A stretch of 32,001 nt of DNA from an uncultured Bacteroidales bacterium (lineage in GTDB: Bacteria; Bacteroidota; Bacteroidia; Bacteroidales; F082). The notes beneath the pieces are model-generated. The model searched no databases, was not told the origin of the DNA, and saw only the letters and a list, made by a program, of their open reading frames with translations. The stretch is from assembly GCA_900318265.1 (NCBI GenBank), contig ONKA01000002.1:142818-174818 (forward strand), given 5' to 3'. The translations under genes and the position numbers were made by a program. Below, one piece after another: positions 2,427-32,001 of this stretch; positions within the stretch are counted from its first letter, which is position 1; every line of letters begins with the position of its first letter.

Positions 2427-2434
2427 CGACTATT

Positions 2435-3945: not shown

Positions 3946-3948
3946 ATG

Positions 3949-3983
3949 AAAACTGCCGCACCTGATGATGCGGCAGTTTTTTT
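3949..3983. terminator. Bidirectional rho-independent terminator
   Basis: A 9-bp GC-rich stem (ACTGCCGCA at 3952-3960 with its complement at 3969-3977) has an 8-base loop. It is flanked by an A run on the left and a T run on the right, so it can end transcription from both convergent genes: the nitroreductase (+) and the C69 peptidase (-). The T run overlaps the peptidase stop codon. Confidence 0.85.
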
Positions 3984-5679: not shown

Positions 5680-5715
5680 TTGAAATGGTATAATTATTGT
5701 TTAAAATAAGTCTTG

Positions 5716-5723
5716 CAAAGGTA
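5716..5723 (-). promoter_or_regulatory. -7 promoter element for the C69 peptidase
   Basis: On the minus strand this is TACCTTTG followed by C, matching TAnnTTTG. It lies 36 bases upstream of the peptidase ATG and only 9 bases from the opposite-facing element at 5733, so the two promoters almost overlap. Confidence 0.65.
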
Positions 5724-5732
5724 CATTTTTTT

Positions 5733-5740
5733 TACCTTTG
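5733..5740 (+). promoter_or_regulatory. -7 promoter element for the outer-membrane barrel protein
   Basis: TACCTTTG followed by C, 19 bases before the ATG at 5760. A possible weak -33 element (CTTG, 5712-5715) overlaps the divergent promoter. Confidence 0.65.
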
Positions 5741-5759
5741 CAACTTAAAAATTACAGCG

Positions 5760-8396: not shown

Positions 8397-8412
8397 TTTT
8401 TTATAGCCGGGC

Positions 8413-8433
8413 CTGCAATCGGCCCGATTGCAG
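8413..8433. repeat. REP-like palindrome upstream of the RAYT gene
   Basis: A 10-bp stem with a single-base loop is built on the core TCGGCCCGA (8419-8427). It lies 14 bases before the RAYT start codon. The same core occurs in the palindromes after the gene. No T run follows, so it is not a clear terminator. Confidence 0.65.
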
Positions 8434-8447
8434 AAAAAACAACGAGT

Positions 8448-9068
8448 ATGCCAACGATCGACCCATCTGACAAACGTCAAATGCCTATTTGGCATTGTCG
8501 CGGTAAGTTTCCTCATCGCGAATACAAACCTTTACAGTTCATCACTTATCGTTTGTATGATTCTGTTCCACAAAAGCTCATTGATGCATGGAAGGAAGAA
8601 CTGAAGGTGACGGAAATGACCCTGTCAAATGATCCCAGAGTAGAGATACTTCGTAAACGCATTGACAAATACGAAGATGCGGGGTACGGCCAATGTTTTC
8701 TCAAAGATGAAAGAATTGCTTCAATGGTCATAGAAAACCTTTTCCATTTCAACGGAATCAGATATAATGTCTTGAGGTGGTGCATTATGCCTAATCATGT
8801 ACATGTATTAATTGAAGTCATGGAAGGCTGGACATTAAGTACCATCATGCACGGATGGCGTTCATACACGGCTCATCAAGCCAATAAAATCTTGGAACGT
8901 ACTGGCGTCTTTTGGATGGAAGAATACTTTGATCGTTATATCCGAGATGAGAAACACTTGGAGACTGTCATCAATTACATTGATAACAATCCCGTCAAAG
9001 CAGGATTAGTGGATAAGGCACACAAGTGGCCTTGGTGCAGTCTTGGGCAGCAAGCTGCTCAATTGTAA
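8448..9068 (+). CDS. REP-associated tyrosine transposase (RAYT, Y1/IS200-like HUH nuclease)
   Basis: This 206-residue single-strand DNA transposase domain protein carries the HUH motif in MPNHVHVLIE (H117 and H119). The family's C-terminal block YFDRYIRDEKHLETVINYIDN, then NPVKAGLV, carries the probable nucleophilic tyrosine (Y164 is my candidate). The Y1_Tnp fold and normal length argue for an intact gene. RAYTs are domesticated single-copy relatives of IS200/IS605 transposases that cut and join REP palindromes. Here REP-like palindromes lie on both sides (8413-8433 and 9101-9145), which supports that role. The coding sequence is visibly more A/T-rich than its neighbours, consistent with lateral acquisition. 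It may be transcribed by read-through from the barrel-protein gene 51 bases upstream. Confidence 0.9.
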   Translation: MPTIDPSDKRQMPIWHCRGKFPHREYKPLQFITYRLYDSVPQKLIDAWKEELKVTEMTLSNDPRVEILRKRIDKYEDAGYGQCFLKDERIASMVIENLFHFNGIRYNVLRWCIMPNHVHVLIEVMEGWTLSTIMHGWRSYTAHQANKILERTGVFWMEEYFDRYIRDEKHLETVINYIDNNPVKAGLVDKAHKWPWCSLGQQAAQL

Positions 9069-9100
9069 AATGTTATAAATGTATGATTGGCTGGACAATT

Positions 9101-9145
9101 GTCAGTCGGCCCGACTTGTTTTATCGTCAGTCGGGCCGACTGACG
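9101..9145. repeat. Inverted pair of REP-like palindromes (BIME-like) downstream of RAYT
   Basis: There are two palindromes, AGTCGGCCCGACT (9104-9116) and a 10-bp-stem unit at 9125-9145 with core TCGGGCCGA. They lie in opposite orientation, so 9101-9116 can pair over 16 bp with 9129-9144 around a 12-base loop. The pair lies between the convergent RAYT and M16 genes, so it could also end transcription, although no T run follows. Confidence 0.7.
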
Positions 9146-9160
9146 GCCCAGTAAAAAATA

Positions 9161-12097
9161 TCAATATCCGAAGATCTCCTCAGTGCTCACGCGCTTGACG
9201 GGACCGAGTTGCTGAAGGGCCTTCATGTCAAGTTCCTTCTCGTTGCCGAGGATGACGTAGCGATAAGGTTTGTTGGCCATCTGCTCTTGCTCAAACTTCA
9301 CGATGTCTTGCAGGGTGATGTTCGGCAGGGCGTTGTAGATGCGCTCGTTGATGTCATAGTCGATGCCCTTCATCTGGGCGCTCAACCAAGCATTGATAAG
9401 GCCGAACTTGGTGGTGCGCTGGCTGGCCAGACGCTTCGTCAGAGCCTCCTTGGCGATGCCAAAGGCTTGTTCGCTCTCAGGCATTTCGTTGAGGATTTCC
9501 AGGAAATGATTCACGGCATCCATCATCTTGTCGTTTTGCGTAATGATGTGCGTGAAGAAGTATTCCTTCTGATCCTTATAGCTCGGCTCCATATAGGCTG
9601 CAAAGGCATTGTAAGCCAAGCCGCGAGCCTCACGCATCTCTTGGAAGACGATGGTGTTCATGCCACCACCATAGTATTCATTGAACAAAGCCTTCACGGG
9701 AGCCTCTTCGGGATTCCATTCGCGCTGTTCATTATGGATCATGCGCATGTAGATGTTCTTGGCATCGTAAGGAGCGATGAGGATCTCGTTTTCAGGTGTG
9801 GGCTGCATCTCGTAGTGCTTGCCTTGCGGGACAACCTGCAACTCGGCCACAGTCTGATGGTTCTCAGTGACGGCCTTGGCCATCTCTTCTGCAGTCATGG
9901 GGCCGTAATACAGCACGGTGTGCTCATAGTTCTTGAGGTTCTTCAAGAGGTCGAGCAATTCCTGCGGGTCAAGTTGACGGATTTGATCCGGTGAGAGCTG
10001 GTTGCGCTGCGAATTGTAGGGACCGTAAAGTCCGTACTGCACCAAAGCGTTGAAATTGCGGTTTTGGTTGGCTTTGGCATCCATGCGTGATTTCTCCAAT
10101 TGCTGGATGCACATCTCTGCCACCATCGGGTCGGCTTGGGCGTTCTGCATCACGTTTTCAAGCAGGGCTAAGGCTTCAGGCATGTTCTCGCCAAGGCCAT
10201 TCAAGGTGACGTTGATACTGCGAGCACCTACGTTGATGTAGTAGTTGCAAGCGAGTTTGTAGAACTGTTGCTTTATTTCCTCGTTGCTCATTTGGTCGGT
10301 GCCAAGATATTCAAGGTAATCGGCAGCCACGCCATAGCGGAGGTCGGCCTCGTCGCCAAACTCATAGCGGAAACTCATTGTGAAACGGCCATTCTCTTTG
10401 TTCTGCACATAAATGTAAGGCAGTCCGGCCTCGGTCTTTCCAAATGTCAGGTCTTTCTTGAAGTCGACGAAACGGGGTTGGATGGCAGGTACTTCAGCGT
10501 TTTGCACTCCAGTAACGAAGTCGCTCACGAGGTCACGGTTGGTCGGGATGGGCGTGATGGCTGGCTTGTCGATTTTTTTCTGGTTTTCGTCCACACCTTG
10601 ACGCTTGTAGACCACCACATAGTTGTCGTTGAAGTGCTTTTTGGCGAAGGCCATGATTTGTTCCTTGGTCATGCCTTCCATGCGATTGAGGTATTCCACA
10701 TCTTGTTTCCAAGGTCTCTCAAGGATGAACGAGTTGACAAACATATTGGCGCGAGACTGGTTGCTCTCCAAAGAGTTATAGTAGTTGAGCTTCATATTGT
10801 TGATCACCGAAGGCATTAGGTCGTCCGGAAAATCACCGTTCTTCAGTTTCTCAATTTCAGCCAGCAAGAGGTCTTTGGCCTCTTCGAGGGTTTGCCCAGG
10901 ACGCGGCGAGCCACCAATGAGGAAGCTGGAATAGTCGCGGTTGGTGCTTGAACCGCCCCATGCGTAGAGCATCTGCATCTGTTGGTTGATGTCGAGGTCG
11001 ATGAGACCGGCAGTACCGTTGCTCAACATGGTGCCAATCATCTCAAGCGTATCGGCTTGCATCGAGTTGCCACGGTCGAAACGCCAACCCATCATTAGGT
11101 TCTCGGCTTCGAGGCCATAGATGGTTGTGTCTTTAGGTGAAGTTATGGGCTTCAAAGGGGCAAATTCGGGCTGCTTCACGTCCTCGCCGGGTTGCCAACT
11201 ACCAAAGTACTTGTCGATGATGGCAATGACCTCGTCAGGGTTGAAGTCGCCAGCCATGCAAATGGCAACGTTGTTCGGGCGGTACCACTTGTTGAAGTAG
11301 TTCTTGATGTTGGTGATCGAAGGATTCTTCAGGTGTTCCTGTGTGCCGATGGTGGTCTGTGTGCCATAGGGGTGAGTGGGGAAGAGCAGGGCATTCAGGG
11401 CTTCCCAAACCTTGCGGCTGTCCTGTGCAATGCCGATGTTGTATTCCTCATAAACGGCTTCCAGCTCGGTGTGGAAACCACGGATGACCATGTTTTGGAA
11501 ACGGTCGGCCTGGATCTTGGCCCAGTTGTCGATTTCGTTTGAAGGGATGTTCTCAACGTAGCAGGTCACATCTTCTGAAGTGTAGGCGTTGGTACCTTCT
11601 GCGCCAATGGTCGACATGAGTTTGTCGTATTCGTTGGGGATGAAATACTGGGCGGCCAACTGGCTCACCGAGTCGATTTCATGGTAGGCGATGCGGCGTT
11701 CCTCGGGATCGGTGAGTGTGCGGTATTTTTCATAACGCGCCTCGATGTCGTCCAAGAAAGGCTTCTCAGCCTCGTAGTCGGTGGTGCCGAACTTGTCGGT
11801 ACCCTTAAACATCAGGTGTTCCAGATAGTGCGCCAAACCAGTGGTTTCGGCAGGGTCATTCTTCGAACCCGTACGCACGGCGATGTAGGTCTGGATGCGG
11901 GGCTCTTCATTGTTGACGCTCAGATAGACGGTCAAGCCGTTATCCAAGGTGTAGATTCGGGCTTCGGTAAGGTCGCCCTTCACGGTTTCATACTTGTACT
12001 TGCTGTCGTTTTTCCTTTTACAGCCAACGAGCAGCATGAGCAGTGCCGCAGCAATCAGCAGCACCTTTGTTGAGATGGTTTTGTTTAAAAATCTCAT
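9161..12097 (-). CDS. M16-family (insulinase/pitrilysin-like) zinc peptidase, lipoprotein
   Basis: This 978-residue protein has a lipoprotein signal ending LLVGC (Cys26). The inverted zinc motif HxxEH is HYLEH (H90, E93, H94), preceded by TGLA as in family M16. The glutamate-rich helix TELEAVYEEYN (about 210-220) should supply the third zinc ligand. The length fits a two-half, four-domain clamshell in one chain; the second half (from about residue 530) lacks HxxEH, as expected. Such envelope M16 enzymes degrade unstructured peptides. It is 30 bases downstream of the AlgH-family gene in the same direction, with no promoter or terminator between, so the two are probably an operon. The REP-like pair lies just after its stop. 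Confidence 0.9.
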   Translation of the reverse strand: MRFLNKTISTKVLLIAAALLMLLVGCKRKNDSKYKYETVKGDLTEARIYTLDNGLTVYLSVNNEEPRIQTYIAVRTGSKNDPAETTGLAHYLEHLMFKGTDKFGTTDYEAEKPFLDDIEARYEKYRTLTDPEERRIAYHEIDSVSQLAAQYFIPNEYDKLMSTIGAEGTNAYTSEDVTCYVENIPSNEIDNWAKIQADRFQNMVIRGFHTELEAVYEEYNIGIAQDSRKVWEALNALLFPTHPYGTQTTIGTQEHLKNPSITNIKNYFNKWYRPNNVAICMAGDFNPDEVIAIIDKYFGSWQPGEDVKQPEFAPLKPITSPKDTTIYGLEAENLMMGWRFDRGNSMQADTLEMIGTMLSNGTAGLIDLDINQQMQMLYAWGGSSTNRDYSSFLIGGSPRPGQTLEEAKDLLLAEIEKLKNGDFPDDLMPSVINNMKLNYYNSLESNQSRANMFVNSFILERPWKQDVEYLNRMEGMTKEQIMAFAKKHFNDNYVVVYKRQGVDENQKKIDKPAITPIPTNRDLVSDFVTGVQNAEVPAIQPRFVDFKKDLTFGKTEAGLPYIYVQNKENGRFTMSFRYEFGDEADLRYGVAADYLEYLGTDQMSNEEIKQQFYKLACNYYINVGARSINVTLNGLGENMPEALALLENVMQNAQADPMVAEMCIQQLEKSRMDAKANQNRNFNALVQYGLYGPYNSQRNQLSPDQIRQLDPQELLDLLKNLKNYEHTVLYYGPMTAEEMAKAVTENHQTVAELQVVPQGKHYEMQPTPENEILIAPYDAKNIYMRMIHNEQREWNPEEAPVKALFNEYYGGGMNTIVFQEMREARGLAYNAFAAYMEPSYKDQKEYFFTHIITQNDKMMDAVNHFLEILNEMPESEQAFGIAKEALTKRLASQRTTKFGLINAWLSAQMKGIDYDINERIYNALPNITLQDIVKFEQEQMANKPYRYVILGNEKELDMKALQQLGPVKRVSTEEIFGY

Positions 12098-12791: not shown

Positions 12792-14162
12792 TTGAAAAGA
12801 ACAGACAATCAATACAAATTCGACGCTCTGCGCAAGGACTTTTCCACTTTCTCTTTTGAAAGTCAGACGGTAAAAAGGGAGAATGGCACCTTGTCGCTGG
12901 CCTTCGATTTCAATCTTGACGACCGCTACCATTTTAGGCCGACACTGGAAGTCCCTGTCAGGCAGTTCTTCGACTGGGACAGCATCCCCGAGGAACAATT
13001 GCAGGCCTTGGCTTTCCAAATCGGAATGACCGAGCTTGTGAGTTATTGGAAAATCGCCTGCCCGAAAAGGGTGGTGGTGAAGCCTTATGCCTTGACTGAG
13101 TCGCAGAAAGCATTTTGGAAAAAGTTGTATTACAATGGGCTGGGTGAGTTTCTGTATTTGAATAGCATCGCGGTTTCGGAAGCGGAGTTGATGGATATTG
13201 AGACGCTGCCCATAGATTCCATGCCATCGCACATCCTGCCTGGGAATGACATGGGCAGCTGGTTTGAAGAAAAGACTCTGGTGCCAATCGGCGGCGGCAA
13301 GGACTCTGTGGTCACGCTGGAATGCCTGCGTAATGTGATGTCTGTCACTCCTTTGATTGTGAATCCTCGTGGCGCTACATTAAACTGCGTGAAGACGGCG
13401 GGTTATAAAGACGATGAGTTCATCGTCATCAACCGCACTCTCGACCCGACCATGTTGAAGCTCAATGCCGAAGGCTATCTGAATGGTCATACGCCGTTCT
13501 CTGCTTTGCTGGCTTTTATCAGTGTTTTGGTGGCATTTGGAAGCAAGTCAAAATACATCGCATTGTCGAATGAGAATAGCGCCAATGAGTCGACGGTGCC
13601 TGGGACGAACATCAACCACCAATACAGCAAGTCCATCGAGTTTGAAAGTGATTTCAGGAACTATGTGGCCGAGAACCTCAGCGAAGAAGTGCAGTATTTC
13701 AGCTTCTTGCGTCCCTTGAGTGAATTGCAGATTGCCAAGCTGTTCTCGCAGTGCGAGGCCTATCATCCGGTATTTCGTAGCTGCAACGTGGGCAGCAAGA
13801 CCGACTCATGGTGCGGTCATTGCCCCAAGTGCCTCTTCACATGGATCATCCTGTCGCCTTTCCTCTCGAGGGAAAAACTTGTCTCCATTTTCGGTAAGGA
13901 CCTGATGGCAGATAGGAGTCTGCAACCTATTTTGGAAGAGTTGAACGGCACTGCTGCCGTGAAACCCTTCGAGTGCGTAGGTACCGTGGAAGAAGTTAGG
14001 GCATGTCTTAAAGCCACATCCGAGGTCCCTGAACCCTCGGATCCTGAGCCTGTCGAAGGAGTCGAAGGGCCGACTGTAGATGAAATACTCTCTCGCTTCA
14101 ACACCAACCATTTCTTGCCTGAAAAGTTTGAACAAATCCTAAAATCCCGTCTCCATGTTTGA
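12792..14162 (+). CDS. murL: MurL-like UDP-MurNAc-L-Ala-L-Glu epimerase
   Basis: This 456-residue protein (from TTG 12792) has a nucleotide-binding PP-loop-like motif VPIGGGKDSVVT (164-175). A later SNENSANES block (259-267) and a metal-site-like CxxCxxC (C341, C344, C347, with C331 nearby) also resemble PP-loop ATPases of the QueC type. MurL, characterised in Xanthomonas, uses ATP to epimerise the terminal L-Glu of UDP-MurNAc-L-Ala-L-Glu to D-Glu. I assign it from remembered family motifs and because the next gene, overlapping by 8 bases, is a MurD-type ligase, which is the known murD2 partnership. The start is uncertain: no ATG is available, and the 5'-most TTG lies in the promoter. Residues 411-427 (EVPEPSDPEPVEGVEGP) come from an inserted palindromic repeat. 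If not MurL, it is an unassigned PP-loop enzyme tied to cell-wall synthesis. Confidence 0.75.
   Translation: MKRTDNQYKFDALRKDFSTFSFESQTVKRENGTLSLAFDFNLDDRYHFRPTLEVPVRQFFDWDSIPEEQLQALAFQIGMTELVSYWKIACPKRVVVKPYALTESQKAFWKKLYYNGLGEFLYLNSIAVSEAELMDIETLPIDSMPSHILPGNDMGSWFEEKTLVPIGGGKDSVVTLECLRNVMSVTPLIVNPRGATLNCVKTAGYKDDEFIVINRTLDPTMLKLNAEGYLNGHTPFSALLAFISVLVAFGSKSKYIALSNENSANESTVPGTNINHQYSKSIEFESDFRNYVAENLSEEVQYFSFLRPLSELQIAKLFSQCEAYHPVFRSCNVGSKTDSWCGHCPKCLFTWIILSPFLSREKLVSIFGKDLMADRSLQPILEELNGTAAVKPFECVGTVEEVRACLKATSEVPEPSDPEPVEGVEGPTVDEILSRFNTNHFLPEKFEQILKSRLHV
14024..14071 (+). repeat. PEPVEG palindromic repeat (partial copy) inside murL
   Basis: This segment contains GGTCCCTGAACC, then CCTGAGCCTGTCGAAGG and a short duplication GTCGAAGGGCC. 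It matches the right arm of the elements at 15229-15287 and 26940-26996. It is read in frame within murL as a proline/glutamate-rich stretch near the C-terminus; the left arm is missing. Confidence 0.7.
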
Positions 14163-15459
14163 CTTGATACTGAATCGATTACGCGGTAAGCGCATTCTCG
14201 TCCTTGGCTTCGGCAGAGAGGGTAAGTCGACCTTGCGTTTCCTGAACAAGTTTCTGTCCGAAGCAGTCGTTGCGGTGGCCGACAAAAACGCAATGGAAGG
14301 CGTTACCCATTCTGGAGAAGGCTATCTTGAGGCTATGTACGACTATGACATTGTCATCAAGACACCAGGCATCTCGCTCAAGGATTTCGACACGAAAGAT
14401 GTGGAGATCACTTCGCAGACCGACCTTTTCCTCAGCCAGTTCCATGCACAGACCATCGGCATCACGGGCACCAAGGGCAAGAGCACGACCACGAGTTTGA
14501 TATACCATCTGCTGAAATCCTCAGGTCGCGATGCCATCCTCACGGGTAACATCGGAATTCCTTGTTTCGACATCATGGAAGACATCCAACCGGGGAGCAT
14601 CGTGGTGTACGAGTTGTCGGCACACCAGCTGGAATATGTGCACAACAGCCCTCGCGTGGGCGTGTTGCTCAACATCTTTGAGGAGCATCTTGACCATTTC
14701 GGCACGATGTCTCGTTATGCAGAAGCAAAACTCAACATTATGCGCTTTATGGGTGAAGACGACACTGCTGTCATCCATGAGACTCTGATGGAAGAGGCTT
14801 GGAGTATGTTCGTCAACAACATCGTGTTCTCCTTGTTTGACATCGATGATCTGGTCGACCGTACGGCCTTGCCATTGCTTGGCGAGCATAACCTGATGAA
14901 TGTCAAGGCGGCGCTGTTGGCATGTTATGCATACGGGGTGGACATTCGAGAGCTCGTGCCTTATCTTTATACCTTCAAGCCTTTGGAACACCGTTTGGAG
15001 CCTGTGGGCACTTTCGGTGGCGTGACCTTCGTTAACGATAGTATCTCCACCATCCCTCAGGCGGCCATCTCAGCCTGTGAGGCTTTGGGACGTGTCGATT
15101 TTCTATTGCTCGGTGGCTTCGACCGTGGCATCGACTACCAACCTTTGGCAGACTATTTGAAAGGACACCTTGTGCCGCATCTATTGTTTACGGGCAAGGC
15201 AGGAGAGAGGATGAAATCTTTATTTGACGGCGTTTCGACGGGCTCAACGGCCTGTGCTACCAAGGTCCCTGAGCCCGTCGAAGGGCCGGTATTATCACAG
15301 TATTCTTCCATGGAAGAAGCCTTCGCCTACCTCGCTGCCCACGCCAAGCCTGGCGACGTCTGCCTGCTGTCGCCCGCAGCTTCCAGCTACGACCAGTACA
15401 AGAACTTCGAGGAACGCGGAAGAAAATTCAAACATTTGGCAGAGGAATTTGGAAAATAA
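14155..15459 (+). CDS. murD2: MurD2-like UDP-MurNAc-L-Ala--L-Glu ligase (Mur ligase family)
   Basis: This 434-residue Mur ligase has an N-terminal UDP-binding Rossmann domain (LGFGREGKS, 17-25). The ATPase domain has the P-loop GITGTKGKSTT (102-112), YELSAHQLE (152-160), EEHLDHFG (176-183) and the probable carbamylated Lys192. The C-terminal domain has NDSISTIP (294-301) and LSPAASSYDQYKNFEERG. MurD proper usually has NDSKATN, so the NDSxxTxP form and the upstream murL favour MurD2, which adds L-Glu rather than D-Glu to UDP-MurNAc-L-Ala. A standard MurD is the alternative. The ATG overlaps the end of murL by 8 bases, indicating translational coupling. Residues about 360-378 (including KVPEPVEGP) are a repeat insertion in the C-terminal domain. 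A terminator follows. Confidence 0.85.
   Translation: MFDLILNRLRGKRILVLGFGREGKSTLRFLNKFLSEAVVAVADKNAMEGVTHSGEGYLEAMYDYDIVIKTPGISLKDFDTKDVEITSQTDLFLSQFHAQTIGITGTKGKSTTTSLIYHLLKSSGRDAILTGNIGIPCFDIMEDIQPGSIVVYELSAHQLEYVHNSPRVGVLLNIFEEHLDHFGTMSRYAEAKLNIMRFMGEDDTAVIHETLMEEAWSMFVNNIVFSLFDIDDLVDRTALPLLGEHNLMNVKAALLACYAYGVDIRELVPYLYTFKPLEHRLEPVGTFGGVTFVNDSISTIPQAAISACEALGRVDFLLLGGFDRGIDYQPLADYLKGHLVPHLLFTGKAGERMKSLFDGVSTGSTACATKVPEPVEGPVLSQYSSMEEAFAYLAAHAKPGDVCLLSPAASSYDQYKNFEERGRKFKHLAEEFGK
15229..15287. repeat. PEPVEG palindromic repeat (complete copy) inside murD2
   Basis: A 13-bp perfect inverted repeat, TTCGACGGGCTCA (15234-15246) with its complement at 15270-15282, is separated by 23 bases. 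It is inserted in frame and encodes GVSTGSTACATKVPEPVEGP. The same element occurs at 26940-26996 in an intergenic gap. Confidence 0.8.
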
Positions 15460-23220: not shown

Positions 23221-24600
23221 TTATTTCTTCTTCACATAATCGTTCATCTTCGCCTTTCCCCAAATCACCTCCATGATCTTGAGCGACTCCTGCACGTCCA
23301 TGTTGCCACGGGCTTCGAGGTTACGCTGGATGAAGACGCAGTCGGTCAGTTCGGCATTGTCGCAAACGATGTCTCGGGCCAAGGCATCACAGGTGGGTGC
23401 GCCACAGATGCCACAGTCGGTCTGAGGTAGACGGGCACGGTATTCGTCGATCTTCTTCATCTTCTCCAAGGCCACGGCGATGTTGTCGTCCAGGACGAGC
23501 ATGGAACGCGGATGGATATCGCCGACCTTCATGTGGCGCATCAAGTAGTTGCGCTCTTCCTCCAACTCGTGGTCTTTGGTCTGTTCGCCCTTACGCTCGC
23601 GGTCGGCGATTTTACGGGCGCGACCGAACACACGCTCGCAGATGAGGAAACGGTTGTCGCAGGTGAGGATGCCTCCGGGACAGCTCTGGTCGCAGGCGCG
23701 CAGCTCAAGGAAGTCAACGTCTTCAATCTCCTCGTTTTCCACTTTTTCTAGGAACTCGATGACATTGTGGATCTCATCAATGGAGTAGGAGTGATGGGCA
23801 TCAGAGAGACGACGCTCACCATTGGTCAATGATGTCAGCACGCCATCGGCTGAGAGCTGCGATACGGGAAGTTTCTGTTCCTTGTAGCCATGGCCTTGCT
23901 TCTTGATTTCGTGGTACACACGGTTGTAAAGCGAGTCCATGTTGATGACGCCGTCGACCAATGACTTCTCTTCGCCAACGGGGTTCTTCACGGCGGCGAT
24001 CTTGGCTGCACATGGCGTGATGTAGAAGATGCCGATTTGGTCGTCTTTTACTTCCAATTCCTCTTTGATCTTTCGGCGGATATACATAGCCGTTATGTCG
24101 AGCGGTGCGCGCAAGGGGATGAGGTTTTCGGTCAGGCCGGGGAACTTCACCTGGATGAGACGCACGATGGCCGGACAGAAGGTCGAGATGAGTGGCCTGA
24201 TGTCGGGATTCTCGGCGGCATATTTGTTTTTGGCTGCTGTGTAGATGGGTATGGAAGACTCGGTCTCCAACACATGGGTGAAGCCCAGATCCTTGAGGAT
24301 GCCGTAGATGCGCGACACGGTGATGTCGTTCGGGAACTGGCCCATAAAGACGGCAGGCACCAAGGCGACTCGGATGGGGAAGTTGAAGATGTTCTCGAAG
24401 TCGTCTTGCTCAATGTAGATGGAACGAGTGGGACACACCTTAAAGCAATTGCCGCAGTCGATACAACGATCGGGTATCAGGACGGCCTTGCCATCGCGCA
24501 CACGCAATGCCTCTGTTGGGCAGATCTTCATGCAACGCGAGCAGCCGATACAGGTGTCTTCGTCTATCTTTAAGGCGTGGAAGAACGGAGTCTTTTCCAT
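23221..24600 (-). CDS. Sensory-type [FeFe]-hydrogenase-like iron-sulfur protein
   Basis: This 459-residue protein starts with two 4Fe-4S ferredoxin motifs (C17-C20-C23-C27 and C46-C49-C52-C56). A hydrogenase large-subunit-like domain follows, with degenerate H-cluster motifs. L1 is STFCP (C142), L2 is TPCAAK (C197) and L3 is RACDQSCPGG (C303, C307), so all four cluster cysteines are kept. The proton-transfer cysteine of canonical TSCCP is Phe141. A C-terminal four-cysteine iron-sulfur domain (TDCGICGAPTC, C396, C399, C404, plus C413 or C421) completes it. This layout resembles sensory (HydS-like) rather than catalytic hydrogenases. It is the last gene of the regulator operon and lies near the structural hydrogenase genes. 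H2 or redox sensing is inferred. Confidence 0.85.
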   Translation of the reverse strand: MEKTPFFHALKIDEDTCIGCSRCMKICPTEALRVRDGKAVLIPDRCIDCGNCFKVCPTRSIYIEQDDFENIFNFPIRVALVPAVFMGQFPNDITVSRIYGILKDLGFTHVLETESSIPIYTAAKNKYAAENPDIRPLISTFCPAIVRLIQVKFPGLTENLIPLRAPLDITAMYIRRKIKEELEVKDDQIGIFYITPCAAKIAAVKNPVGEEKSLVDGVINMDSLYNRVYHEIKKQGHGYKEQKLPVSQLSADGVLTSLTNGERRLSDAHHSYSIDEIHNVIEFLEKVENEEIEDVDFLELRACDQSCPGGILTCDNRFLICERVFGRARKIADRERKGEQTKDHELEEERNYLMRHMKVGDIHPRSMLVLDDNIAVALEKMKKIDEYRARLPQTDCGICGAPTCDALARDIVCDNAELTDCVFIQRNLEARGNMDVQESLKIMEVIWGKAKMNDYVKKK

Positions 24601-24680
24601 AGTTTTCAGTTGTTAGTTGTTCAGTTGTTCAGTTAGGCATGTCATCCCAGCGAAGGCTTGTGGGAGAGCGGGGATCTATG
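24601..24680. repeat. Tandem TTGTTCAG run and GTCATCCC-type repeat
   Basis: The gap between the RsbW-like and hydrogenase-like genes holds tandem copies of GTTGTTCA (24608-24636). After it comes GTCATCCCAGCGAAGGC (24641-24657), with a partial complement GCGGGGATC (24668-24676), like the common dispersed repeats with that sequence. Confidence 0.5.
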
Positions 24681-24689
24681 CCGGCTTGT

Positions 24690-25103
24690 TCAGGTAAAAT
24701 TCACTTCCATCTCGACGGTGGTGCCAACGCCCACAGTGGAGGTCACATTCAATTTGTCGACATTCTTCTGGATGTTCGGCAGACCCATGCCTGCGCCGAA
24801 GCCCATGTTGCGCACCTCGGGCGAGGCGGTGGAGTTGCCTTCCTGCATGGCCCAGTCGATGTCGGGGATACCAGGACCGGTGTCAACCACCTTCAAGGTG
24901 ATTTTGTCGGGTTCGATGTCGGCGTAGATAGTGCCACCGTAGGCGTGAGCTATAGCGTTGACCTCGGCCTCGTATAAGGCGACGACCACCCGCTTGATGA
25001 TCTGTGGGCTGACGTTGAGCTGCTTCAAGGTCTTCTTGATGGAGCTCGATGCGGCTCCCGCGTTGACGAAGTCCGCTTCATATACTTGGTATTCTAAGTG
25101 CAT
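24690..25103 (-). CDS. RsbW-like anti-sigma-type HATPase (serine kinase family)
   Basis: This 137-residue single-domain GHKL ATPase has the N box ALYEAEVNAIAHAYGG (about 42-57), the G1 box VVDTGPGIPD and the G2 box GFGAGMGLPNI. It matches HATPase_c_2 proteins such as RsbW and SpoIIAB, which phosphorylate STAS-domain anti-anti-sigma factors on serine. No STAS protein or sigma factor is present in the window, so its partner may be one of its operon neighbours. The ATG at 25103 was chosen because the domain begins there; the open frame upstream overlaps the DRTGG gene. The spacing to that gene is 22 bases. Confidence 0.85.
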   Translation of the reverse strand: MHLEYQVYEADFVNAGAASSSIKKTLKQLNVSPQIIKRVVVALYEAEVNAIAHAYGGTIYADIEPDKITLKVVDTGPGIPDIDWAMQEGNSTASPEVRNMGFGAGMGLPNIQKNVDKLNVTSTVGVGTTVEMEVNFT

Positions 25104-25125
25104 GGCATGGTGTTTTGGTTTGACA

Positions 25126-25470
25126 TCAGAAAATGGGTAGCATACCCGCCTTGAAGAGCAGTCCGCAGGCCTTGAACATGGAGTAGTCACATTCCATGAC
25201 CACCATGCCTTCATCCTCGGCCTCTTCGATCATCTCCTCGGTGGCTTTCTTGCGCCTGACGAGGACGATGATGTCGAGGTTGCCCATCTCGCAGGTCCGG
25301 ATGGTCTGCATGTTGCTGAGACCCGTCAGGATGACGGGGTTGTAGTCGCCGAGGGTGAGCACGTCGCTCATCAGGTCGGAGGCGAAGGCGGTCTCGTGTT
25401 CTTCGTCCAAACGGACTTCGCCGCAACGCACCGTGGCGTTCAAAAGTTCAGATATTTCTCTGAGTTTCAT
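25126..25470 (-). CDS. DRTGG-domain protein (paralogue 2)
   Basis: This 114-residue protein resembles the DRTGG domain found beside CBS domains and in phosphotransacetylase-type proteins. It begins MKLREISELLNATVRCGE, has ASDLMSDVLTLGDYNPVILTGLSNMQTIRTCEMGNLD in the middle, and ends ECDYSMFKACGLLFKAGM. The SDLMSDVL motif and overall layout match the gene at 27000-27335, so the two are paralogues in one operon. DRTGG domains are thought to bind ligands or nucleotides; the ligand here is unknown. The start is the ATG at 25470, since the preceding frame lies in a repeat. Confidence 0.75.
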   Translation of the reverse strand: MKLREISELLNATVRCGEVRLDEEHETAFASDLMSDVLTLGDYNPVILTGLSNMQTIRTCEMGNLDIIVLVRRKKATEEMIEEAEDEGMVVMECDYSMFKACGLLFKAGMLPIF

Positions 25471-25485
25471 CTTGTTAATTATTAT

Positions 25486-25602
25486 GGGATTGCTTCGCAA
25501 GAAATCTTTCAAAATCCGTTTAAAATCTTAAATAATCAATTTCTATTTTGGAAGATTTTTCATTTCTATTTTTGATTGATTTCTTGGCCGAAGGCCAATC
25601 CC
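25486..25602. repeat. MITE-like 117-bp element with terminal inverted repeats
   Basis: The left end GGGATTGCTTCGCAAGAAAT (25486-25505) and the right end (25578-25602), read as reverse complement, share GGGATTG-CTTCG-CAAGAAATC with two 2-base differences in length. Each end can fold on itself, and the middle is A/T-rich with a direct repeat TTTCTATTTT. It fills the gap between the HATPase stop and the second DRTGG start. No transposase is inside, so any mobilisation would be in trans. Confidence 0.6.
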
Positions 25603-25603
25603 G

Positions 25604-26152
25604 TTAATCATTATAATGTATTTCTTCCAAATTCTCCTGAATCATCTCCTTCAGGTATTTCATGATGCTGACGTCGTTCATCGACATGCCGTCAAGGGCT
25701 TCCTTGATCTCGTCGGTATCGAAGACGAACTCGCCATCATCGGTGATGTGCTTGTAGATGAAATGGATGTCCTCGTGGGCAGCAAAGAGCATCACCAGCG
25801 AGCCGGCCAAGTCGCCCATAGGCGGACGGTCGAGATGGTCGTGCTGGAACCAGAAGTTGAGCACGGTGCCTTTGCCGACCTCGCTTTCAATATTCATGCC
25901 TCCTCCCGCGTTCTCGGTGTTCATCTTGATGAGGGGCAGTCCGAGTCCGACTTTACGCGTAGTGCGTGAGGTCGTCCAGGGATCGGTCACCTTGGCCAAA
26001 AACTCGGGCGTCATGCCCTTGCCGTTGTCCTTGATGGTGAAGGCGTATATGTTGTCTTTCAGGCTGTCACGAATGGTCAGCTCGACGAGGGTGGAGTTGG
26101 CCGCCGTCGAGTTTTCCATCAGGTCGTAAACGTGCATTGATAGTTCTTTCAT
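25604..26152 (-). CDS. HATPase-domain protein (sensor-kinase-like ATPase without a DHp domain)
   Basis: This 182-residue protein has a GHKL ATPase core: N box HVYDLMENSTAANS (7-20), G1 box IKDNGKGMT (40-48), G2-like TTRKVGLGLPLIK (64-76) and GKGT (93-96). There is no phosphoacceptor-histidine helix and no membrane segment, so it is a soluble ATP-binding module and not a full histidine kinase. The C-terminal 80 residues (HEDIHFIYKHITDDGEFVFDTDEIKEAL) are helical and not assigned. Its ATG overlaps the PHP stop by 4 bases, giving translational coupling. It may phosphorylate or bind another product of this operon. Confidence 0.82.
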   Translation of the reverse strand: MKELSMHVYDLMENSTAANSTLVELTIRDSLKDNIYAFTIKDNGKGMTPEFLAKVTDPWTTSRTTRKVGLGLPLIKMNTENAGGGMNIESEVGKGTVLNFWFQHDHLDRPPMGDLAGSLVMLFAAHEDIHFIYKHITDDGEFVFDTDEIKEALDGMSMNDVSIMKYLKEMIQENLEEIHYND

Positions 26153-26925
26153 CCGAATAAGAGTTGTAGTTTTTCTTTGGGTTCAGTGTCGATATAGCGT
26201 CCGTCCTCGCCGTGAAGCGTCTTGCGGAACTCGTCGAAGGTCTTGTCGTACATGTGAAGCACACAATGCACCTCGCCGATGATATGCAGGAAATGTGCGT
26301 CGCTGCTCTTGGTGAAGTTGAATTTCTTCAGGTAGGCATATTTCTTCAAAAAGTCGGGCTTGGTGACATGTTTCGAGATCTCCAAAGCATCGGCCTTGAG
26401 ATCGGGTGGAATGAAGCCCAACTGACTGATGAGGCTGCTCGCCGGCTTGTTGACATGTGCCGGGACAAACAGTCCACCGATTTCATGCACCACATCATAA
26501 AGTTGGTCCAAATCGGCATCCAATGCGCTCCACAGCAGCCATTCCTCTTCGCCCACCACTTCCTCGTTCTCGTCAACGATGAGTTGATAGCCGAACTTTT
26601 CCTCGTCAAGAGGAATGTGGGGGAGGTGAGCGTCGAGAAACTCCTGGAACTTGTCCAACTGCTCGTCGTTCTCGAAGTAGGCGAGGGCATGGGCTTCTTC
26701 CTGCGTGGTGATTTCGACGCCGCCGATGACGAGGATGCCGTTCTCGCGGCCGATCTTTTGCGTCACCTTCACCTGACGGGTGGTGTTGTGGTCGCAGATG
26801 GCGATGACATCCAAATGGAGCTTCTTGGCCTGCTCAACGATGGCTGAGGGACTCATATAGAGGTCGCCGCACGGCGAGAGCACCGTGTGCATGTGGAGGT
26901 CGGCTCTATATGATTGGAGTTCCAT
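26149..26925 (-). CDS. PHP-domain phosphoesterase
   Basis: This 258-residue protein has all the PHP metal-binding motifs. They are ADLHMHTVLSPCGD (H11, H13, D21), AICDHNT (D45, H46), GGVEITT (E71) with EEAHA (H79), VPAHVNKP (H157) and SSDAH (D209, H211). PHP enzymes hydrolyse phosphate esters such as histidinol phosphate, nucleotides or pAp, using two or three metal ions. In an operon with kinase-like ATPases it may remove a phosphate or destroy a nucleotide signal. The start at 26925 was chosen because residue 8 begins the first PHP strand. It overlaps the HATPase gene by 4 bases and is separated from the upstream DRTGG gene by a palindromic repeat. Confidence 0.85.
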   Translation of the reverse strand: MELQSYRADLHMHTVLSPCGDLYMSPSAIVEQAKKLHLDVIAICDHNTTRQVKVTQKIGRENGILVIGGVEITTQEEAHALAYFENDEQLDKFQEFLDAHLPHIPLDEEKFGYQLIVDENEEVVGEEEWLLWSALDADLDQLYDVVHEIGGLFVPAHVNKPASSLISQLGFIPPDLKADALEISKHVTKPDFLKKYAYLKKFNFTKSSDAHFLHIIGEVHCVLHMYDKTFDEFRKTLHGEDGRYIDTEPKEKLQLLFG

Positions 26926-26939
26926 AAAATATGGTCGGC

Positions 26940-26996
26940 GTTTCGACGGGCTCAACGACCTTAGCTTTTGCAGGTCCCTGAGCCTGTCGAAGGGCC
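26940..26996. repeat. PEPVEG palindromic repeat, intergenic copy
   Basis: TTCGACGGGCTCA (26942-26954) faces TGAGCCTGTCGAA (26979-26991), the same element as in murD2 with one mismatch in the arms. It fills the gap between the DRTGG stop and the PHP start and is not translated there. Confidence 0.75.
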
Positions 26997-26999
26997 GTT

Positions 27000-27335
27000 T
27001 TATTCGTGTAGCAAGTTATACACCAATCCAGCAATCTCATACGTCGGCAACGAGGTCTGCAGGATAGGCAGATCCTCGTCGTTGCTCTGCTCGATGGTCT
27101 CGTCGTTGGGGACGAGGTTCTTCACCAAGATGATGCAGGCCAGTTCCTTCAGCGAGGCCACGGCCATCACGTTTTTGTGGGTCTGCAGCGTGATCCAGAT
27201 GTTGCCTTCCATGGCATTGCCCATCACGTCGCTCAAAAGGTCACTGATGTAGCAGCCATCGATCTCTCTGTCAAGGCCGTTAGCGCCCGACAATACTTTG
27301 AGGTTGAGTTTCTCAACTAATTCCTGTACTTTCAT
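27000..27335 (-). CDS. DRTGG-domain protein (paralogue 1)
   Basis: This 111-residue cytoplasmic protein begins MKVQELVEKLNLKVLSG. It contains CYISDLLSDVMGNAMEGNIWITLQTHKNVMAVASLKELACIILV, which matches the DRTGG family pattern and the SDLLSDVM motif of the operon's second DRTGG gene. No catalytic residues are evident; the domain probably binds a small ligand. It is the first gene of the six-gene regulator operon and has a TAAATTTG promoter element 43 bases upstream. Confidence 0.8.
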   Translation of the reverse strand: MKVQELVEKLNLKVLSGANGLDREIDGCYISDLLSDVMGNAMEGNIWITLQTHKNVMAVASLKELACIILVKNLVPNDETIEQSNDEDLPILQTSLPTYEIAGLVYNLLHE

Positions 27336-27377: not shown

Positions 27378-27385
27378 CAAATTTA
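27378..27385 (-). promoter_or_regulatory. -7 promoter element for the hydrogenase-regulator operon
   Basis: The minus-strand sequence TAAATTTG, followed by CAG, is the same as the -7 element of the structural hydrogenase operon (30368-30375). Many A residues surround it; the -33 element is not clear. Confidence 0.65.
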
Positions 27386-29777: not shown

Positions 29778-30113
29778 ATGGAAAACCTTACCAAAGAAAA
29801 GTTTGAGATTTTCATGATGCTTTGCGCGTCGGGCATCGATGGCAACATTTCCATGAAAGAGTTGGAACGCATCTGCATGCAGTTCGACGAAAAAATTTAT
29901 AACGAGGTCTTCGAGTCTTGGAAGTCAATGTCCAGCCCGGCATGGCTGAGTTTCTTCAAGGAGCATAAGGACGAGTTTTTGAAAACCCAAGAGGACAAGG
30001 TGGCTTTTATGGCCGACATCAACGACATCGTCGCTGCCGAGGAAGGCGAGGTCAACCTCAAAGAGCAGAACTTCATGAAGGTGCTCGAAATGCTGATCAA
30101 CGACGAGCTTTAA
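29778..30113 (+). CDS. Small acidic TerB-like helical protein
   Basis: This 111-residue protein is acidic and apparently all-helical. SGIDGNISMKELERI (18-32) and ADINDIVAAEEGEVNLKEQNFMKVLEML (about 80-107) resemble the repeated acidic-glycine motifs of TerB-fold proteins, in which aspartates may bind metal. The family assignment is by pattern only. It lies alone between the subtilase and the hydrogenase operon and has its own promoter. Its function is unknown; no tellurite-resistance partners are present. Confidence 0.65.
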   Translation: MENLTKEKFEIFMMLCASGIDGNISMKELERICMQFDEKIYNEVFESWKSMSSPAWLSFFKEHKDEFLKTQEDKVAFMADINDIVAAEEGEVNLKEQNFMKVLEMLINDEL

Positions 30114-30135
30114 TAGTTTCGTCAGTTTGTTGCAT

Positions 30136-30208
30136 TGGCTTTAAAAAGCATGTCATTTCAACGCTTGTTTATGAAGCTGTTGAATGTAAATCATGCTTTT
30201 TAAAGCCA
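30136..30208. repeat. Long hairpin-forming inverted repeat
   Basis: TGGCTTTAAAAAGCATG (30136-30152) is exactly complementary to 30192-30208 (17 bp). Inside, TTCAAC/GTTGAA and GCTT/AAGC pair further, giving a 73-base near-continuous hairpin. No T run follows. The rest of the 30114-30457 gap is A/T-rich and holds an operator-like inverted repeat and the hydrogenase promoter. Confidence 0.75.
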
Positions 30209-30236
30209 TTGTTATTTGCAAAAACTCCAGTTTTCT

Positions 30237-30343: not shown

Positions 30344-30375
30344 TTTGGAATGAGCACTTATTTTCCCTAAATTTG
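30344..30375 (+). promoter_or_regulatory. Promoter of the structural hydrogenase operon (-33 TTTG, -7 TAAATTTG)
   Basis: TTTG (30344-30347) is followed after 20 bases by TAAATTTG (30368-30375), the best full match to the Bacteroidota consensus in the window. The leader then has a CAAGAGG-TGTGT-CCTCTTG hairpin (30386-30404). Confidence 0.75.
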
Positions 30376-30457: not shown

Positions 30458-30847
30458 ATGGCAAAAGTTAAGTCTTTAGCAGAACTGAAAGCTATGAGAG
30501 AGAAGCTTCAGTCCACCCTTGACCTTCGCGAGAAGAGCAACGATCCCGACTCTTTGGTGCAAATTAAGGTCGCAATGGCTACCTGCGGTATCGCCGCCGG
30601 TGCAAAACAAGTTATGGAACACATGATGGAGAAGGCCGACGAGCTGAAGCTCGGCATCGTCTTCACCCAGACCGGCTGCATGGGCTACTGCCACGCCGAG
30701 CCGACCATCGAGGTGAAGTGCCCTGGCAAGGACCCGATCGTCTTCGGTCATGTCGACAACAACCGCGCTGACGAAATCCTCACCAAGTATGTGATGAACA
30801 ACGAAATGGTGGAAGGCGTCATTCCCGTGAACTACGAAACTATCTAA
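30458..30847 (+). CDS. 2Fe-2S ferredoxin-like (thioredoxin-fold) subunit of [FeFe]-hydrogenase
   Basis: This 129-residue protein contains ATCGIAAGA (C43) and QTGCMGYC (C74, C78), the pattern of short NuoE-like thioredoxin-fold 2Fe-2S proteins found in trimeric [FeFe]-hydrogenase operons. Cys88 in EVKCPGKDP may be a fourth ligand. It lacks the helical N-terminal domain of full NuoE/HydC. It probably passes electrons within a HydABC-type complex that couples NADH and reduced ferredoxin oxidation to H2 formation. It is the first gene of the operon and is followed 23 bases later by the NuoF-like subunit. There is no Shine-Dalgarno; the ATG follows an A/T-rich leader. Confidence 0.85.
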   Translation: MAKVKSLAELKAMREKLQSTLDLREKSNDPDSLVQIKVAMATCGIAAGAKQVMEHMMEKADELKLGIVFTQTGCMGYCHAEPTIEVKCPGKDPIVFGHVDNNRADEILTKYVMNNEMVEGVIPVNYETI

Positions 30848-30870: not shown

Positions 30871-32001
30871 ATGGCAAAAATCAAGATGCACGTGCTGGTC
30901 TGCGGTGGTACAGGCTGCCAGGCTTCGGCAAGTGCTCAAATCATCAAGAACTTCGAGGACATCCTTGCCGCGAAGGGCTTGCAGGATGAAGTTCAGGTGG
31001 TCAGAACGGGTTGCTTCGGCTTCTGCGAGAAGGGCCCCATCGTCAAGATCATGCCTGACAACACTTTCTACACTCAGGTGAAGCCTGAAGACGTCGAGAA
31101 GATCGTGAACGAGCACATCATCAAGGGCCGTAAGGTCACCGACCTGCTCTACATGGATCCCGAGAACAAGGAACACGTTGCCGACTCGAAGCACATGGGC
31201 TTCTATCGTAAGCAACTCCGTATCGCCCTGCGTAACTGCGGTTTCATCAACCCCGAAAACATCGACGAGTGCATCTCGCGTGGTGGTTATGAAGCTCTGG
31301 GTAAGGTGCTGTCCGAGATGACTCCCCAACAGGTGGTCGACGAAGTCACCAAGTCAGGCCTCCGCGGCCGTGGCGGTGCTGGTTTCCCCACCGGCGTGAA
31401 ATGGGGTCTCTGCGCCAAGAACAAGTGCGATGAGATGTACGTCATCTGCAACGCCGACGAAGGCGACCCGGGTGCGTTCATGGACCGTTCCATCATGGAA
31501 GGTGACCCGCACAGCATCGTCGAGGCTATGGCCATCTGCGGCTATGCCATCGGCGCCACTCATGGTTTGGTTTACATCCGTGCTGAATACCCGCTGGCTA
31601 TCCACCGTCTGCAAGTCGCCATCGCCCAGGCCCGCGAATACGGTCTGCTCGGTAAAGACATCCTCGGCTCGGGCTTCGATTTCGATATCGAGCTCCGCTA
31701 CGGTGCCGGCGCTTTCGTCTGCGGTGAAGAGACCGCTCTGATCCACTCGATGGAAGGCAAGCGTGGTGAACCTACGCTGAAGCCCCCGTTCCCGGCTGTC
31801 AGCGGCTACATGGCCAAGCCCTCCAACGTGAACAACGTGGAGACCTTCGCCAATGTGCCGATCATCATCACCAAGGGTGCCGACTGGTTTGCCAGCATCG
31901 GCTCCGAGAAGTCGAAGGGCACGAAGGTGTTCGCTCTGGCCGGTCAGATCAACAACGTCGGTCTGATTGAGGTCCCGATGGGCACCACGCTGCGCGACAT
32001 C
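30871..32001 (+). CDS. hydB: HydB: NuoF-like flavoprotein subunit of [FeFe]-hydrogenase (partial, 3' end outside window)
   Basis: The first 377 residues of a NuoF-type subunit are visible, and the frame is open at the window end. Residues 1-90 form a thioredoxin-fold 2Fe-2S domain (C11, C16, C48, C52, in VCGGTGC and RTGCFGFC). This N-terminal fusion is typical of HydB in trimeric [FeFe]-hydrogenases and NADP-reducing hydrogenase subunits. The FMN/NADH region has RGRGGAGFPTGVKW (165-178) and NADEGDPGAFMDR (194-206). GAGAFVCGEETALIHSMEG and PSNVNNVETFANVP follow. The missing C-terminus should carry the 4Fe-4S sites. It transfers electrons between NADH and the complex. hydA is expected downstream. 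Confidence 0.9.
   Translation, partial: MAKIKMHVLVCGGTGCQASASAQIIKNFEDILAAKGLQDEVQVVRTGCFGFCEKGPIVKIMPDNTFYTQVKPEDVEKIVNEHIIKGRKVTDLLYMDPENKEHVADSKHMGFYRKQLRIALRNCGFINPENIDECISRGGYEALGKVLSEMTPQQVVDEVTKSGLRGRGGAGFPTGVKWGLCAKNKCDEMYVICNADEGDPGAFMDRSIMEGDPHSIVEAMAICGYAIGATHGLVYIRAEYPLAIHRLQVAIAQAREYGLLGKDILGSGFDFDIELRYGAGAFVCGEETALIHSMEGKRGEPTLKPPFPAVSGYMAKPSNVNNVETFANVPIIITKGADWFASIGSEKSKGTKVFALAGQINNVGLIEVPMGTTLRDI

Follow-up and report, generated by a model that had tools for sequence, protein, structure and literature searches.

A 32,001-nucleotide stretch of DNA from an uncultured Bacteroidales bacterium (assembly GCA_900318265.1, contig ONKA01000002.1, positions 142,818 to 174,818; hereafter the window) carries six neighboring minus-strand genes, which encode two DRTGG-domain proteins, a PHP-domain metallophosphoesterase, two GHKL ATPases (HATP and an RsbW-like protein) and a putative sensory [FeFe]-hydrogenase-like protein, HydS. 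We found that these genes form a real and widespread module built around a known sensor type, and that the module consists of two separable triads, DRTGG2-RsbW-HydS and DRTGG1-PHP-HATP. We tentatively interpret it as a redox control module for enzymes that balance electrons between ferredoxin and NAD(H), with a DRTGG protein and a GHKL ATPase in each triad and with H2 as one possible input; the chance that this interpretation is right seems to us slightly less than even. The six genes, from first to last, are:

27000..27335, minus strand: DRTGG1, a 111-amino-acid DRTGG-domain protein of triad 2 (PF07085, E 9e-8, over cut-off).
26149..26925, minus strand: PHP-domain metallophosphoesterase, 258 amino acids, ATG at 26925 (PF02811, E 4e-9).
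25604..26152, minus strand: HATP, a soluble GHKL ATPase of 182 amino acids (PF02518 HATPase_c, E 2e-13).
25126..25470, minus strand: DRTGG2, a 114-amino-acid paralogue of DRTGG1 in triad 1 (weak Pfam DRTGG match, E 0.03).
24690..25103, minus strand: RsbW/SpoIIAB-like GHKL ATPase of triad 1, 137 amino acids, ATG at 25103 (PF13581 HATPase_c_2, E 1e-13).
23221..24600, minus strand: HydS, a group D (M2e)-type sensory [FeFe]-hydrogenase-like protein of 459 amino acids (PF02906 Fe_hyd_lg_C, E 2e-24, plus PF04060 FeS).

An earlier note on this DNA had described a single minus-strand array in which the PHP and HATP genes overlap by 4 bases, and the open reading frame coordinates confirm both points: the successive spacings are 74, -4, 133, 22 and 89 bases. 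The same 4-base overlap occurred in 28 of 62 adjacent PHP-HATP pairs among 172 relative loci (duplicates included), where overlaps between neighboring core module genes were frequent.

For the comparison, the best 80 of 241 relatives were kept from a genome-collection scan with the HATP alignment. With stretches from further genomes included, 193 loci were annotated, and 186 remained after seven duplicates were dropped. Eighty fetched stretches were chosen, not random (28 HydF-negative, 12 near RnfC and 40 mainly high-scoring or on long contigs), and shares among the 186 loci describe this chosen set, not frequencies in nature. Group labels (Bacteroidales or others) were assigned from record titles, with L033 put with Bacteroidales by guess. 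The linkage on which the earlier note had built its proposal is conserved: all six genes were present at 102 of the 186 non-redundant HATP loci, a further 36 had HATP with at least two of the four kinds RsbW, iron-sulfur protein (FeS), PHP and DRTGG, and 48 had at most one. Within the genus of the window, a close HATP was found in 20 of 24 genomes, its own included, one of which (G020) has two copies; outside the genus, in the same taxonomic order, HATP was found in 5 of 16 genomes at 41-49% identity.

Gene order separates the two triads. Most full sets (84/102) have the order DRTGG2-RsbW-FeS-DRTGG1-PHP-HATP, and ten have the order of the window, DRTGG1-PHP-HATP-DRTGG2-RsbW-FeS; in seven others HATP lies on the opposite strand, facing the other five genes, and the last contains a gene fusion (L055, see below). 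From genomes in which HATP stands apart we fetched 16 sensor candidates: DRTGG2-RsbW-FeS were together in 11, RsbW-FeS in one, DRTGG-FeS in one, and FeS stood without either in three. In genome G075, HATP lies before rnfC (L085) and the other five genes lie beside hydCDBA (L219). On the side of the second triad, PHP has a DRTGG gene immediately before it in 118 pairs among the 172 relative loci.

The sensor type is known from the literature: group D (M2e) proteins have two N-terminal 4Fe-4S clusters, an H-domain that has lost C299, a C-terminal Cx2Cx4Cx16C motif and no PAS domain (PMC8163306). Window HydS contains both N-terminal 4Fe-4S motifs, with C17, C20, C23, C27, C46, C49, C52 and C56 all present, and these cysteines are complete in 114 of 116 relatives. 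With ligand positions assigned by alignment with the HydA chains of 8a6t and 7p5h, the H-cluster ligands C142, C197, C303 and C307 are retained in all 116 relatives, as are C396, C399, C404 and C421 of the C-terminal Cx2Cx4Cx16C motif. Position 141, which corresponds to the proton-relay cysteine C299 of CpI, is F in the window and C in 0 of 116 relatives, A being the commonest residue across the family. A Pfam scan found no PAS domain in window HydS. In each architectural feature checked, window HydS has the architecture of a group D putative sensory [FeFe]-hydrogenase, and the retained H-cluster cysteines together with the lost proton-relay cysteine bear out the sensor-type changes that had been read from the sequence at first sight. 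A reading by eye that the H-cluster itself was lost (at the L3 bridging cysteine) was rejected, since the alignment shows C303 and C307 kept; one row among 57 with S at a ligand position (C before S) was the HydA fragment L068_1_1434, which was left out of the later HydS selection. No NCBIfam hydrogenase model was over cut-off for the HydS of the window or of L113. Structural HydA proteins at the same loci retain M353-, K358-, E361- and M497-type residues, and in HydS these are mostly changed, with the K358 type as the exception. As a separate observation on structural HydA (105 rows), the residue aligned with HydS C142 is S in 89 (TSCSP type), and the residue preceding it is C in all 105.

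The sensor is accompanied by a kinase-like protein. The best NCBIfam model for the RsbW-like protein is anti-sigma F (E 1e-17, below its cut-off), and its score against TIGR01925 is 63.9 bits for a cut-off of 135. Residues E45, N49, D74, G76, G78, G103, G105 and G107 are present in at least 97% of 106 rows, and E45 and N49 align with the E-x3-N box of SpoIIAB. We take E45 to be the catalytic glutamate and N49 the Mg-binding asparagine of the N-box, and the glycines to be those of boxes G1 and G2. Its neighbor DRTGG2 scores 14.6 bits, under the Pfam gathering threshold of 25.2 bits; DRTGG1 (32.3 bits) and the DRTGG2 relative of L055 (39.6 bits) are over it. In tblastn searches, window DRTGG1 and DRTGG2 each matched the other's locus in L014 (27% identity, E 8e-5 and 3e-10). 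L055 contains a natural DRTGG2-RsbW fusion, the sole fusion among the module families in 193 loci; in its model the RsbW-like domain matches the SpoIIAB fold (1l0o/1til, target template modelling (TM) score about 0.8) and the DRTGG2 domain matches 2ioj (Pfam DRTGG, target TM-score 0.83). The fusion suggests that DRTGG2 and RsbW may act as one unit. A second apparent DRTGG-RsbW fusion, in L081, was not counted: its N-terminal part is unlike a DRTGG domain and is probably the next frame. In L101 a CBS pair is fused to RsbW, which suggests that an adenine-nucleotide-type (CBS) sensor could replace DRTGG beside RsbW.

The six window proteins contain no HisKA/HPt or receiver domain by Pfam scan, in line with the absence of a classical two-component system that the earlier note had proposed. 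At one locus such genes are neighbors: in L090 (Nitrospirae contig, 2232-5882), a locus without HydS, RsbW-DRTGG-PHP-HATP lies between the genes for a HisKA kinase and for a response regulator (best model CpdR, below its cut-off).

The proteins of the second triad retain their presumed working residues. D32, S35 and T49 are present in at least 97% of the rows of both DRTGG families (116 DRTGG1 and 89 DRTGG2), making them candidate phosphorylation or ligand sites. In PHP, H11, H13, D45, H46, E71, H79, H157, D209 and H211 are found in at least 97% of 127 rows; presumably these nine residues are its metal-binding set. CpsB/YwqE-type PHP enzymes are protein phosphatases, so a phosphatase role is possible for the PHP protein of the module. 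HATP keeps its D10-x3-N14 and glycine boxes (D10, N14, D42, G44, G46, R66, G69 and G71 in at least 97% of 170 rows) and was modelled with a predicted local distance difference test score of 89 and a predicted template modelling score (pTM) of 0.86. Its fold search returned histidine kinases, MutL, gyrase B and Grp94, and its C-terminal extension of about 75 amino acids is without a clear fold relative.

A partner enzyme was scored as seen when it lay within 12 genes of HATP on either strand; some are hidden by contig ends. Of the 102 full sets, 63 had HydA nearby by this rule (HydABC 60, HydABC with Rnf 3). HydB was seen without HydA in 12, including the window, which is cut by its contig end; HydB with Rnf and without HydA was seen in six, Rnf in six (in one of them, L022, the Rnf genes lie upstream on the opposite strand) and an aldehyde oxidoreductase (AOR)/TrsS cluster in three. 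Across all 186 loci HydA was seen in 110, and the gene directly after HATP was HydD in 122, RnfC in 12 and an acyl-CoA dehydrogenase in one. In the AOR/TrsS cases (L112, 886-8945; L120; L124) the six-gene set precedes a TrsS/molybdopterin aldehyde oxidoreductase cluster resembling DVU_1553-1556, an unexpected partner, identified by NCBIfam for L112 and one L120 gene and by similarity for the others. Sensor-less sets precede Rnf in L137 and L138, and in L063 an acyl-CoA dehydrogenase and EtfB (over cut-off); the dehydrogenase, named Bcd by eye, was reassigned by its best model, acryloyl-CoA reductase AcrC (below cut-off). A quick HydS tree required a minimum of five changes among HydA-, Rnf- and AOR-linked states (87 classified rows, L022 left out).

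These neighborhoods do not support a module specific to H2 or hydABC, as it also occurs with Rnf, with HydCDB-Rnf lacking HydA, with TrsS/AOR and, sensor-less, with acyl-CoA dehydrogenase-EtfB. Non-hydrogenase partners at several loci favor ferredoxin/NAD(H) redox as what the modules jointly sense or act on, and we interpret ferredoxin and NAD(H), not H2, as the common denominator of most partners.

Several neighborhoods are of interest in themselves. In L095, L123 and L140-L145, HydC-HATP-HydD-HydB is followed by rnf genes without HydA, an arrangement that might represent a HydCDB-Rnf supercomplex or electron path. L101 (Bipolaricaulota, 4571-11648) has HydC- and HydB-like genes, the CBS-pair-RsbW, PHP, HATP and a NuoG/HdrA-like frame (named by eye), with no HydS at the locus; searches of its genome for HydF and group A HydA gave no match over cut-off. 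A Rex gene adjoins the module in L028, L029 and L055; in Caldicellulosiruptor bescii, a five-gene hyd unit is listed as a Rex target (PMC6391272).

How the six proteins might work together can be sketched from their families and neighbors. HydS would respond to reduced ferredoxin by a change of state, and to H2 as well if it carries an H-cluster, and would hand this state to the RsbW-like kinase, which may act on DRTGG2, its usual neighbor and one-time fusion partner, in the place of a STAS antagonist. DRTGG1, PHP and HATP would make up the other arm, in which PHP would be the phosphatase that resets the switch and HATP, whose gene lies within the hyd operon or before rnfC, would act on the HydBCD or Rnf machinery. 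Such a circuit would be a partner switch with DRTGG for STAS and PHP for PP2C; it would need no sigma factor or response regulator, and its output could be enzyme activity, assembly or transcription. That the GHKL kinases phosphorylate DRTGG proteins and that PHP resets them is conjectural, as would be a relay by a nucleotide. The complete scheme would be a form of signalling not described before: a pair of GHKL kinases would act on a pair of DRTGG proteins, PHP would reset them, a hydrogenase-derived iron-sulfur protein would be the sensor, and the system would tune how active or abundant the complex in use is (HydABC, HydCDB-Rnf, Rnf, acyl-CoA dehydrogenase-Etf or AOR/TrsS), with H2 as only one input. 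This full reading is on the unlikely side, though it is a serious candidate.

Several findings weigh against a redox control module. Twelve of the 102 full sets have no partner seen, and neither have 33 of all 186 loci, 29 of these being among the 60 taken as Bacteroidales. In 30 of 186 loci HATP occurs with hydCDBA/HydABC and at most one other module component, a pattern that an assembly factor would fit too. For the L055 fusion, AlphaFold gave a model with a pTM of only 0.58, so we claim no fixed DRTGG2-RsbW arrangement or interface. Finally, the Pfam scan of the six window proteins brought up neither a STAS or PP2C domain nor a sigma factor (the neighbors at other loci were Pfam-scanned in part), and the partner-switch analogy therefore rests on one fusion, adjacency and fold.

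The strongest rival holds that the genes are an assembly factor set, with HATP as a GHKL chaperone-like ATPase that builds or inserts clusters in HydBCD or RnfC and the rest checking cluster status. HATP usually lies inside the hyd operon, HydD or RnfC directly follows it in 134 of 186 loci, the 30 loci with HydABC and at most one other component fit, and its fold matches include MutL and gyrase B besides histidine kinases. In Acetobacterium woodii the ATPase HydE does not belong to the active enzyme; a part in its assembly or in signalling has been suggested (PMC3315566). This explanation does not account for an H-domain sensor without its proton-relay cysteine, a SpoIIAB-like kinase with an intact box and two DRTGG proteins, and HATP was not found in 90 of 177 HydF-positive Bacteroidales genomes; we regard it as improbable, yet worth keeping in view.

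A second rival would have HydS, as a group D sensor with a full H-cluster, read H2 for the hydrogenase only, the ATPases relaying the signal to hyd expression. The architecture of HydS, the 63 full sets with HydABC and the uptake of an H-cluster by TamHydS, for which sensing has been proposed (PMC8163306), speak for it, and so does the strong co-occurrence with HydF in Bacteroidales. HydF co-occurrence counts in favor of the redox control module too; all co-occurrence was tested without regard to the relatedness of the genomes. Among 275 Bacteroidales genomes HATP was found in 98, HydF in 177 and both in 87; HydF was present in 87 of 98 genomes with HATP and 90 of 177 without (odds ratio 7.6, p 6e-11). 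In the Clostridia-type class sample (253 genomes, completeness filter 90 requested; HATP 134, HydF 172, RnfC 192), HydF was found in 105 of the 134 genomes that have HATP and in 67 of the 119 that lack it (odds ratio 2.8, p 2e-4), and RnfC in 115 of 134 against 77 of 119 (odds ratio 3.3, p 1e-4). At E 1e-20 the match to HATP was single in 132 of 134 and 98 of 98 HATP-positive genomes of the Clostridia-type class and Bacteroidales, respectively. The Bacteroidia class sample (256) had four genomes with HATP, five with HydF and two with both, including the window's own. The association with hydrogenase capability that the earlier note had anticipated is thus present in both large groups.

Many exceptions to this association are probably assembly gaps. 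HydA with H-cluster motifs is at the locus in 17 of the 29 Clostridia-type genomes that have HATP and lack HydF, so the HydF absences are probably often such gaps; of the Bacteroidales genomes with HATP and without HydF, 3 of 10 fetched have HydA at the locus (L191, L193, L197), and the eleventh, G026, has HydA elsewhere, with HydF and HydG not over cut-off. Given HydA at the locus in many HydF-negative genomes, we did not accept HydF absence as proof of hydrogenase-free modules. The cases left after discounting gaps are L113, L188-L190 and L112/L120/L124. The clearest hydrogenase-poor cases are two. Genome G142 (L113), with module and Rnf on a 2.45 Mb contig, has HydS and no HydF match at E 1e-60 (HydE, HydG and HydA were not searched); L188-L190, full six-gene sets from three Bacteroidales genomes that belong to a single family, have no HydF match (HydE, HydG and HydA likewise not searched).

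G142 counts against sensing of H2 for the hydrogenase only, as do the 15 of 102 full sets with Rnf, HydB-Rnf or AOR/TrsS that have no HydA at the locus (L022 with its Rnf on the other strand included). At the position of CpI K358, R occurs in 13 of the 44 HydS proteins from loci without HydA and in none of the 72 from loci that have it. On the HydS tree this amounts to about three changes, one of them K to Q, with a sign test short of significance, so we treat it as a hint and do not take it to prove that modules without HydA are unable to sense H2. Taken as a whole, a sensor dedicated to H2 and the hydrogenase is doubtful.

The weakest rival, a nucleotide messenger made by one of the ATPases, degraded by PHP and read as an adenine-nucleotide ligand by the DRTGG proteins, draws on PHP matches to CehA/McbA, TrlF, RNase RNM and nucleoside-bisphosphate phosphatase models (all below curated cut-offs) and to the 5'-3' exoribonuclease 7ug9, on the fold match of DRTGG to the regulatory CBS-DRTGG region of pyrophosphatase 3l31 and on the CBS pair fused to RsbW in L101, but the set has no known nucleotide synthetase and the GHKL proteins of this type that are known act as kinases or ATPases, which makes it highly improbable.

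Parts of this picture are already in print. The HydS sensor type and the neighboring kinase-like gene have been described (PMC8163306, PMC3561251, PMC3315566), with the genes for group D sensors close to those for bifurcating HydABC and for an ATPase that resembles histidine kinases (PMC8163306, PMC3561251). A histidine kinase gene, hisK, outside a NiFe-Hyd holoenzyme is mentioned (PMC9304861), and HATPase_c has been reported on group C1 enzymes (PMC11406978). For the PHP and DRTGG genes, the triads and the partner range, no title or abstract describing them was among the matches listed in the open full-text literature, a body that leaves most subscription journals outside, and the literature match for DRTGG with hydrogenase concerns a different gene.

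Among known systems, TamHydS is like window HydS in its cluster motifs, H-cluster cysteines, lost C299, missing PAS domain and location near hydABC and a kinase-like ATPase; window HydS differs in belonging to a six-gene module with two DRTGG proteins and PHP, in two separable triads, in a family also found beside Rnf, AOR/TrsS and other partners, and in having F at residue 141. According to a 2026 study, H2 does not reduce the C-terminal cluster, a result that argues against the redox state of that cluster as the signal route (PMC13104023). The module resembles RsbW/RsbV and SpoIIAB/SpoIIAA in its kinase-like protein with SpoIIAB-like fold and E-x3-N box, in the adjacent gene for a small partner protein and in having a phosphoesterase among its members, and differs in lacking STAS, PP2C and sigma factor, whose STAS and PP2C parts DRTGG and PHP would replace. 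HATP is probably the kind of gene called HydE in the A. woodii hyd cluster (not the maturase), judged by description: both are soluble histidine-kinase-type ATPases encoded in a hyd operon, although that gene is single and HATP is one of six, and their orthology is conjectural. In Vallitalea guaymasensis, a sensory hydrogenase and a histidine kinase lie directly beside rnf and were read as a group C1 system sensing H2 (PMC6163223). In gene placement, judged by description, this resembles our Rnf-linked modules, with one genome there against 12 HATP-RnfC junctions here and, counting L022, 12 full sets that have Rnf but in which HydA was not seen. The DRTGG proteins share a DRTGG-type fold or family match with the CBS-DRTGG region of pyrophosphatase and the N-terminal domain of HPr kinase, but are free-standing, 111-114 amino acids long and without a catalytic domain.

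The surroundings of the module in the window contain the following features:

30458..30847, plus strand: HydD-type 2Fe-2S subunit, first gene of the hyd operon (weak 2Fe-2S thioredoxin-like matches, below cut-off).
30871..32001, plus strand: hydB, cut by the contig end (tblastn matches in relatives, e.g., 72-97% identity over 376-377 residues).
29778-30113: open reading frame of 111 amino acids that precedes the hyd operon and matched nothing in Pfam up to E 0.5.
27378..27385, minus strand: TAAATTTG, possible -7 element upstream of DRTGG1 (number of occurrences not above chance).
30368..30375, plus strand: TAAATTTG, possible -7 element upstream of the hyd operon (number of occurrences not above chance).

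The hyd operon is divergent from the module, with a subtilase gene and the 111-amino-acid open reading frame between them, and the window ends where the contig ends. Relatives of the HydD-type gene directly precede HydB in 122 pairs among the 172 relative loci. The earlier note had placed the operon 3.1 kb away, with the same -7 element, TAAATTTG; the distance and the occurrences upstream of both operons are correct, and the number of occurrences is at chance level. The window has two matches to TAAATTTG against 0.94 expected, and 28 of 100 shuffles gave at least two; the looser TAnnTTTG occurs 23 times against 11.85 expected and looks like a general element of this genome. As TAnnTTTG is so common in the window, the sharing of TAAATTTG carries no information, and we rejected it as evidence of co-regulation of the module and the hyd operon.

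Two kinds of repeat were also observed. An inverted repeat with 20-nucleotide arms, 95% complementary and 39 nucleotides apart, lies at 30133-30211, between the 111-amino-acid open reading frame and the hyd operon. The repeat CCTGAGCCTGTCGAAGG has three copies with at most three mismatches (14043-14059, 15268-15284 and 26977-26993) against 0.11 expected; one of them falls between DRTGG1 and PHP. Near the module, a family of proteins of about 300 amino acids was seen in 17 loci (L049, L063, L112, L115, L117, L120, L122, L134, L138, L139, L146, L147, L163, L165, L168, L171 and L187), with a SPOR domain in L146, the one scanned with Pfam.

The route by which group D sensory hydrogenases pass on their signal has been stated as an open question (PMC8163306), and the module supplies likely partners for it: a SpoIIAB-like kinase and a DRTGG protein, plus PHP, the second DRTGG protein and HATP. 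With HATP in 134 of 253 Clostridia-type and 98 of 275 Bacteroidales genomes, a redox control module would, if true, be a general and overlooked layer of control in anaerobes, rumen species included. The exchange of the module among HydABC, Rnf and other ferredoxin/NAD(H) enzymes suggests one electron-balance logic, which would bear on H2, acetate and ethanol yields, and the way these cells sense and adjust electron flow is now open to experiment.

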